Part shown: in pieces, positions 7,015 through 61,689 of the stretch
How the letters are laid out: the number at the start of each line of letters is the position of its first letter
Position numbering within the stretch: the first letter of the stretch is position 1
Source: Pseudomonas xionganensis
Lineage (GTDB): Bacteria; Pseudomonadota; Gammaproteobacteria; Pseudomonadales; Pseudomonadaceae
Length of the DNA stretch: 64,000 nucleotides
Assembly (NCBI RefSeq): GCF_009763245.1
Contig: NZ_WKJZ01000001.1
Span: forward strand, 620,001-684,000
Direction: 5' to 3'
Position numbers and translations under genes: made by a program
The notes under the pieces: generated by a model
What the model was told of the DNA's origin: nothing
The model's input: only the letters and a program-made list of their open reading frames with translations
Databases searched by the model: none

Positions 7015-7244
7015 GGTATGAGTCAATCTTAAACACTTGTGACTGTCAAGAGAGGCCTATTCTGCCCTAAAAGAGGGCGTCACGACCAATTTCAGGGCGC
7101 CGTGGGTCATGCGCTGCCGGCGTGAAGCCTTGCCGGTCGCGGTGCTCAGTGGCCTGTGTTCGATTTTTTACATGGCTATTGTGAAAAAAAATGAACAAGG
7201 CTAAGCTCGGCTCAAACCCATAACAGCAATAAAACGGGTGTCTC

Positions 7245-30350: not shown

Positions 30351-30490
30351 CAGGCCGTTGAAAAACGTAGGCGAGGCAGGCAAGACAAGGCGAAAACGGC
30401 CGAAAAAGCGCAGTTTACGTGTTGTAAATGAGCATTTTGAGGCCGTTTTCAACGCAGTATTGCCAACGCAGGTAGTTTTTCAGCGGCCTG
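30351..30490. repeat. Structured intergenic repeat, copy B
   Basis: A 140-bp palindromic element with terminal repeats CAGGCCGTTGAAAAAC (30351-30366) and GTTTTTCAGCGGCCTG (30475-30490), 15 of 16 complementary. Inner arms GAAAACGGCC (30392-30401) and GGCCGTTTTC (30441-30450) are perfectly complementary. The apical hairpin is TTTAC-GTGTT-GTAAA (30414-30428), followed by TGAGCA. It lies between two convergent genes. Confidence 0.87.
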
Positions 30491-61488: not shown

Positions 61489-61504
61489 GCCGCAGGCCTT
61501 TGGA

Positions 61505-61689
61505 GAGCGTAGCGAGCGAAGGCCAGGCAAGGCGAATCAGGCTCGGCCGCGGAATGTACGAGTTGTACATGAGCAGGCCGAGCCTGATTTACTCGCTGCG
61601 CTCGCCCTCCGGGCCAGCCTTCGGCTGTTACTCTGCTTCGCTGTGTTGCAACGCAGCATGGCCGAGCGCAGTAGCTCTCCATTGGCCTG
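61505..61689. repeat. Structured intergenic repeat, copy C
   Basis: Outer arms GAGCGTAGCGAG (61505-61516) and CTCGCTGCGCTC (61592-61603) pair with one mismatch. Inner arms AATCAGGCTCGGCC (61535-61548) and GGCCGAGCCTGATT (61576-61589) are perfect. The apical hairpin is TGTAC-GAGTT-GTACA (61555-61569) followed by TGAGCA. Two mini-hairpins follow at 61604-61614 and 61616-61626. It fills the gap between ggt and the ferredoxin gene. Confidence 0.85.

Follow-up and report, generated by a model that had tools for sequence, protein, structure and literature searches.

Three intergenic elements in a 64,000-nucleotide stretch of the Pseudomonas xionganensis genome (hereafter the window), denoted A, B and C, were described in an earlier note as sharing one fold with compensatory base changes, and this pattern was attributed to selection for structure, in the form of a processed RNA, a transposable hairpin or a double-sided terminator. 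The locus raises the question of what kind of entity keeps such a fold, and whether the fold is recognized as duplex DNA, single-stranded DNA or RNA. According to our analysis, A, B and C are probably members of a widespread family of composite MITEs, with duplex ends read by a transposase and an interior that is constrained as a single strand, most likely as RNA.

Anatomy of the elements

The sequences of A, B and C, their common fold and the apical hairpin followed by TGAGCA were all borne out, both by the sequence itself and by out-of-sample covariance matches. The replacement of a T-A by a G-C pair in the apical hairpin of C is real, and the next stems differ in sequence among the three elements, with perfect pairing in each. 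The extent originally given for B is exact; the real extents of A and C, put at 1886-2075 and 61505-61689, are slightly wider. The features are as follows.

1882-2079, + strand: element A, about 198 bp (R2 match, E 1.1e-24)
1923-1932, + strand: A, inner stem, 5' arm (sequence)
1945-1965, + strand: A, apical hairpin and TGAGCA core (sequence)
about 1966-2022, + strand: A, inserted module of three hairpins, within the element
2030-2039, + strand: A, inner stem, 3' arm (sequence)
30351-30490, + strand: element B, 140 bp, with ends of type 1 and free of extra modules (R2 match, E 1.8e-40)
30351-30366, + strand: B, left terminal inverted repeat and outer stem (sequence)
30392-30401, + strand: B, inner stem, 5' arm (sequence)
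30414-30434, + strand: B, apical hairpin and TGAGCA core (sequence)
30441-30450, + strand: B, inner stem, 3' arm (sequence)
30475-30490, - strand: B, right terminal inverted repeat and outer stem (sequence)
61493-61689, + strand: element C, 197 bp (R2 match, E 7.5e-19 over 61493-61628)
61535-61548, + strand: C, inner stem, 5' arm (sequence)
61555-61575, + strand: C, apical hairpin and TGAGCA core (sequence)
61576-61589, + strand: C, inner stem, 3' arm (sequence)

For the covariance models R1 (65 positions, comprising the core and the inner stem) and R2 only other copies were used, with A, B and C left out of the alignments A1 and A2, so that the matches in the window are out of sample. In the 64 kb searched at E <= 10, R2 found A, B and C and nothing else, as did R1, with B at 3.1e-26, C at 2.2e-16 and A at 3e-12. 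Compared with dinucleotide shuffles, the RNA folds have z-scores of -3.97 (A), -8.55 (B) and -8.66 (C); in the minimum free energy fold of A alone, other pairings displace the apical hairpin. A and C owe their additional length to small internal hairpin modules, lacking in B and placed after the inner stem in C. The termini of B are CAGGCC..GGCCTG, and the left end of A is shorter than the type-1 consensus.

Element A is flanked by a 62-codon ORF and a gene for a PAD_porph-domain protein, and B by genes for an alpha/beta hydrolase and a DUF2059 protein, both gene pairs being convergent; C is located upstream of a gamma-glutamyltranspeptidase gene. The right end of A reaches into the PAD_porph-domain reading frame, the stop codon of which (2069-2071) is now inside the element; in the relative G266 (locus L201) the end of a different element appears to supply this stop, and most relatives shown use another one, as judged by eye. 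Elsewhere in the window, positions 7062-7241 of the - strand match the Pseudomonas sRNA P1 (Rfam RF00623) with 114 bits.

In the family as a whole, the outer stem encloses an interior of constant order: a middle stem, an AAGGC/AACGC loop, the inner stem, a tandem GA/GA mismatch and a short stem, then a GCGGAG/TGA internal loop, the apical TAC..GTA hairpin and TGAGCA. The outer stem itself exists in several versions, starting with CAGGC(C/T)GTTGAAAAAC in type 1, where it is adjoined by GTAG, with GA(A/G)CCTGTT in type 2 and with GGGTCTGTACGAAAA in type 3. Types 1 and 2 show 34% ungapped identity, a value we set aside, since the two cores are out of register by one base. Among 40 type 1 elements, 22 measure exactly 140 bp (one 139 bp, one 141 bp, 16 longer), and so do 8 of 14 of type 2 (six longer), 140 bp being the commonest length in both; in type 3, 2 of 6 have this length and are the shortest, and four are longer; lengths of 154-156, 170, 184-186, and 196 bp and above recur. 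Without modules, copies hardly ever depart from 140 bp, whatever ends they carry. At least 11 of 14 terminal pairs are of the Watson-Crick type at the expected ends of 97 out of 237 unique cores, a count that allowed the right end a shift of at most 8 positions and includes chance motif matches and module-bearing copies. Three features go beyond what had been noticed in the window: the outer stem as a terminal inverted repeat, the fixed basic length and the spread of the family across classes.

A module of the GACTGCATGGATGCAGGAGGTAG type recurs beside the outer-stem GTAG in either arm, on the left in loci L260, L261, L265, L277 and L284 and on the right in L022 and L032. In L339 (G000:C1, near 2674300) the element is shortened, with GGCCG of the left outer stem joined to GGCCG of the inner stem and the core gone, as in repeat-mediated deletion.

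Conservation and distribution of the fold

Windows around the core were chosen by the core motif and the AACG spacing alone. In 120 distinct core windows 90.8% of the stem cells are paired, compared with 74.4% after shuffling and no more than 56% when the register is slid; after thinning to 32 windows at 85% identity, the values are 83.3% and 64.2% (shuffled), the copies not being independent of each other. In alignment A2 (21 sequences) pairing amounts to 95.0% vs 77.7%, and covariation to 0.553 vs 0.214. Alignment A3 comprises 42 matches from outside the genus of the window, mostly from other families or classes and two of them from Listeria; here 96.8% of cells are paired vs 76.2% and double changes occur in 19 of 21 pairs, the matches having been fitted to the model and hence leaning towards it. 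Over the full element, compensatory double changes are seen at 32 of the 41 predicted pairs (25 thinned sequences). Thus, the claim of conserved structure survives the comparison of covariation with chance in the core windows, A2, A3 and the full element. TGA and TGAGCA belonged to the search motif; the mismatches GA/GA and GCG.AG did not, and these are near-invariant across the 120 windows.

In the 3.96-Mb genome there are 26 occurrences of the motif TACGNNNTGTANNTGAGCA, against none of the reversed motif. Seven more copies possess different apical loops (L155, L156, L160, L162, L335, L336, L337) and one additional R1 match is found at C3:98031, so that the genome contains at least 34 copies. 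All of the 26 congeners, taken from the 29 nearest by one gene, carry the motif in 2 to 137 copies each, with 0 for the control in every one. The exact motif is found in just 8 of 145 genomes of the order, far more narrowly than the fold: R1 matches 132 of 369 genomes and 107 of 272 genera sampled from the class of the window, presumably the Gammaproteobacteria, and, in a sample of the phylum as a whole, 88 of 398 genomes, of which 50 belong to other classes; the copy counts per genome in both of these searches are lower bounds, with 13-14 candidates scored at most. A single family (f246) accounts for 40 of the 50 genomes from other classes, with E-values of about 1e-11 to 1e-3 and many of these genomes incomplete, while the strongest matches of other classes outside that family are in G912 (1.6e-18), G959 (3.5e-15), G968 (7.9e-14) and G955 (1.4e-13). 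R1 also matches a Rhodocyclaceae genome, a Bosea genome and, with E-values of 5e-13 and 3e-9, Listeria rustica at two distinct sites. The L. rustica fold copies lie within 3.3 kb (L092, 2585-2648 and 5769-5833) and differ in their outer stems, and one is situated near the 3' terminus of a frame resembling glmM.

A motif search of phage records gave no match; ten IMG/VR contigs contain the motif, and R1 matches all ten. Among the stretches, at least 119, returned by the motif scan, a fair number, mostly outside Pseudomonadales, were judged by eye to be devoid of the hairpin anatomy and look like chance matches. In another genome of the same class, a small SRP RNA gene has an element copy (L405, 1501-1701) immediately upstream of it.

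Mobility, strand sense and competing explanations

The elements are mobile, which supports the transposable hairpin among the options initially considered: relatives have empty sites, and targets are duplicated. For ten elements of genome G221 a site could be assigned in G345 (the two are 97% identical at one locus); four sites are empty, four occupied, one is rearranged and one has a single flank matched. In two of the empty sites CTAG is present once, and twice around the G221 element; the third reads CTGG, the G221 element being flanked by two CTAG, and the fourth has CTAA, the flanks in G221 being CTTG and CTAA. A type 2 element is absent from three of three relatives (G345, G206, G413), and TCA is duplicated in the occupied genome. 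Flanks of type 1 elements are identical over 4 bp in 21 of 40 cases (8.9 expected with flanks dealt at random) and those of type 2 over 3 bp in 9 of 14 (3.2 expected); type 3 does not exceed expectation, with 3 of 6 identical over 3 bp (3.0 expected) and 0 of 6 over 4 bp, nor do three rows of type 1b; as the rows include some orthologues, they are not independent. The matching targets vary (CTAG, CTAA, TTAA, TTAG, CTAC), and the duplications are 4-bp YTAR for type 1 and 3-bp TNA for type 2. As is characteristic of MITEs, the elements of these two types are short, devoid of a transposase gene and bounded by terminal inverted repeats, with target duplications and empty sites.

In the window itself the target duplication is not intact: B is flanked by TTTG and TTAG, C by GCCG and TCAC, and the left end of A is shortened. 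The core motif occurs at site B in none of the loci of 29 relatives (L165-L193), and at site A in one of 29 (G266, L201, a hybrid element; absent from L202-L229). This hybrid (G266:C23, core at about 1511-1529) combines a type-1 left end with a type-2 right end, which suggests recombination between elements.

Duplications of YTAR or TNA targets are typical of the IS5 and IS1031 groups of the IS5 family. The target size suggests that the transposase is perhaps IS5-like, although the agreement may be coincidental. As to an autonomous element, a scan of 1.9 Mb (overlaps included) with strict patterns revealed no opposed pairs of ends without a core, and one long pair of ends turned up (L061); nine isolated ends were listed, and the five examined had no autonomous partner. 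End-like matches in plasmids were in no annotated gene, except for two weak, unrelated ones, and among five plasmid flanks a gene for an IS91-family transposase, one for an ISAs1-family transposase and one for a recombinase were each found once, these being instances of gene proximity only. Neither source yielded a transposase bounded by the ends of the family.

Our reasoning on strand sense starts from the premise that, under a constraint acting on duplex DNA only, G-T and A-C mispairs would be equally common. In the inner stems G-T exceeds A-C by 75 to 21 (p 3e-8), after thinning by 50 to 13 (90% identity) and, with a weaker bias, by 31 to 12 (85%, p 0.005), and in intact thinned copies by 20 to 5; in A3, whose model favors G-U, the numbers are 22 and 6. 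The terminal 16 bp give 21 and 20, counted in 44 ungapped 140-mers that were chosen for Watson-Crick ends. In A1, a gapped alignment scored on its RNAalifold structure, G-T and A-C number 7 and 0 in the middle stem, 9 and 4 in the inner stem (not significant) and 28 and 12 in the outer stem, the last being at odds with ends read as duplex. Taken together, this suggests that the ends are recognized as duplex and that the interior between them folds as the strand carrying TGAGCA.

In the mechanism we favor, the outer 14-16 bp of each arm would be terminal inverted repeats, read as double-stranded DNA by a DDE transposase acting in trans; these ends would be interchangeable, in versions that differ in target duplication (YTAR, 4 bp, for type 1; TNA, 3 bp, for type 2). 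The interior of about 110 bp would be a conserved imperfect hairpin, kept by constraint on one single strand. This strand is more likely to be RNA than single-stranded DNA, for which the wobble bias would be expected too; the interior would then work, and bind its partner, as RNA.

The main rival is a palindrome that functions only as duplex DNA, the arms of which are recopied by intrastrand template switching and by gene conversion among copies, with no selection for the fold. Its basis is a locus shared by G221 and G345, where the ends of the element are common and both inner arms differ together; an exchange of arms there provides a non-selective route to paired changes. The hybrid element at site A in G266 and the lack of strand sense in the terminal 16 bp agree with such a history. 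However, correction of one arm by the other should erase mismatches, yet GA/GA and GCG.AG are near-invariant, and the excess of G-T over A-C in the inner stems is not expected; we therefore regard this explanation as unlikely.

Somewhat further from the evidence is a single-stranded DNA substrate of the attC or IS200/IS605 kind, i.e. a folded strand cut by a recombinase or an HUH transposase, to which we assign a low probability. It would account for a strand-specific fold with conserved unpaired bases, for the strong DNA fold of B (z -6.4 for the strand with TGAGCA and -5.6 for its complement) and for the GTAG beside the type 1 outer stem, as in GTAG-tagged REPs. On the other hand, the targets are variable, often match on both flanks and are single in the empty site, and the terminal inverted repeats are long; to our knowledge, neither attC-like nor IS200/IS605-like mechanisms give target duplications.

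Genomic setting bears on the double-sided terminator. According to a home-made GC3 gene caller, used for both of the counts given here, 89 elements have both neighbors called: 29 are in convergent and 9 in divergent gaps, and 20 and 31 in tandem gaps running along and against the TGAGCA strand, respectively; four other elements are inside a called frame. An earlier, cruder count in the genome of the window gave 12 tandem, 7 convergent and 6 divergent, the gaps of the window itself being 13, 4 and 7. The elements are thus rarer in divergent gaps, which lends the terminator weak support, but other Pseudomonas intergenic repeats are likewise described as more frequent in convergent than in divergent gaps (PMC2718517). 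Orientation to tandem neighbors is not significantly biased (20 vs 31, p=0.16), so that a simple read-through function is unsupported. An immobile host feature spread by duplication, be it a bidirectional terminator or an sRNA gene, would suit the mostly intergenic location and the 29 convergent vs 9 divergent of 89, but it is contradicted by empty sites with target duplications, by the lack of the core at site B in the loci of 29 relatives and by the unfixed orientation to tandem neighbors, and is hardly credible.

Relation to known systems

The usual bacterial MITE is defined by its sequence and has a single parent insertion sequence. In the hairpin family discussed here, it is the fold and the basic length of 140 bp that stay constant, whereas ends, stems and modules are subject to exchange. 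The core fold is shared by many families of one class and extends to other classes and to another phylum. We tentatively entertain the possibility, well short of a firm proposal, that these elements represent an RNA-bearing class of transposable elements crossing phyla, from Pseudomonadota to Listeria, in which a mobile hairpin of fixed length bears a strand-specific structured RNA, and the folded core, as opposed to the ends, is the heritable unit, persisting by the adoption of different transposase-specific ends. If the interior is a working RNA, this is a transposon-borne RNA family of which common environmental bacteria carry many copies and which falls outside the Rfam cut-offs; if it is not, mobile palindromes can covary without RNA function, which calls for caution in covariation-based RNA discovery.

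Several known systems were considered. Integron attC sites carry the core sites R''/R' (RYYYAAC...GTTRRRY), to which the ends GTTGAAAAAC...GTTTTTCAAC do not fit, as judged by eye. HEARO (RF02033)/omega-RNA gave no match in the genome of the window at E<=10. REPs are tied to RAYT tyrosine transposases, and we know of no target duplication made by the IS200/IS605 or REP type, which was rejected, as target duplications are present here. REP/REPIN and GTAG-tagged repeats are similar in being intergenic palindromes with many copies and a GTAG tag, but REPs are described as 20-40 bp long (PMC3733652, PMC3116915), whereas the hairpin family consists of 140-bp inverted-repeat units with target duplications. 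PATEs and SMRs of Haloquadratum are also gene-free mobile repeats, with PATEs palindromic and mobile elements inserted into mobile elements; in contrast, PATEs are described as lacking terminal inverted repeats, and both as lacking target duplication (PMC3119063). Coxiella QMITE2 is 150-190 bp long with 7-11 bp repeats (PMC5896051). A possible relative, going by its published description (PMC2718517), is R178 of the R178/R200 families of P. fluorescens, which measures 101 bp, has inverted repeats of 11 bp inside it and numbers 9-28 copies per genome.

MITEPsy1 of P. syringae pv. phaseolicola resembles the hairpin family in being small, gene-free and bounded by terminal inverted repeats with a 4-bp duplication; it is described as 100 bp long, with CTAG/YTAA duplicated, transposition demonstrated and an IS5-family element as the suspected mobilizer (PMC3189936). 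It is not the same element: its 100-bp copy (L344), located by the two published ends and compared by eye, has neither the core motif nor a long hairpin (DNA fold z -1.4 and -1.2).

A search of Rfam and of openly accessible literature found no description of the hairpin family, which is apparently unnamed, and no Rfam family reached its cut-off on the window elements or in 40 distant loci. The initial impression that there is no named family was therefore nearly right, except that one arm matches Rfam sX9 (RF02228), an sRNA of Xanthomonas, below threshold. The matches are antisense to the TGAGCA strand, the best scoring 33.7 bits against a 44-bit cut-off; 9 of the 10 best places of the sX9 model in the genome of the window are these elements, and at E<=10 it also matches 10 of 14 control genomes, none over the cut-off. 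The sX9 model differs in its length of 76 nt and its opposite strand, and R1 did not recognize one sX9-like locus of Xanthomonas sacchari; the spacing from GTAGCGAGC to TGTACAT looks the same by eye. Judged from these sequence matches, sX9, which has been ranked in the top 20 of annotated bacterial sRNAs by prevalence (PMC9029176), is a probable relative of the hairpin family.
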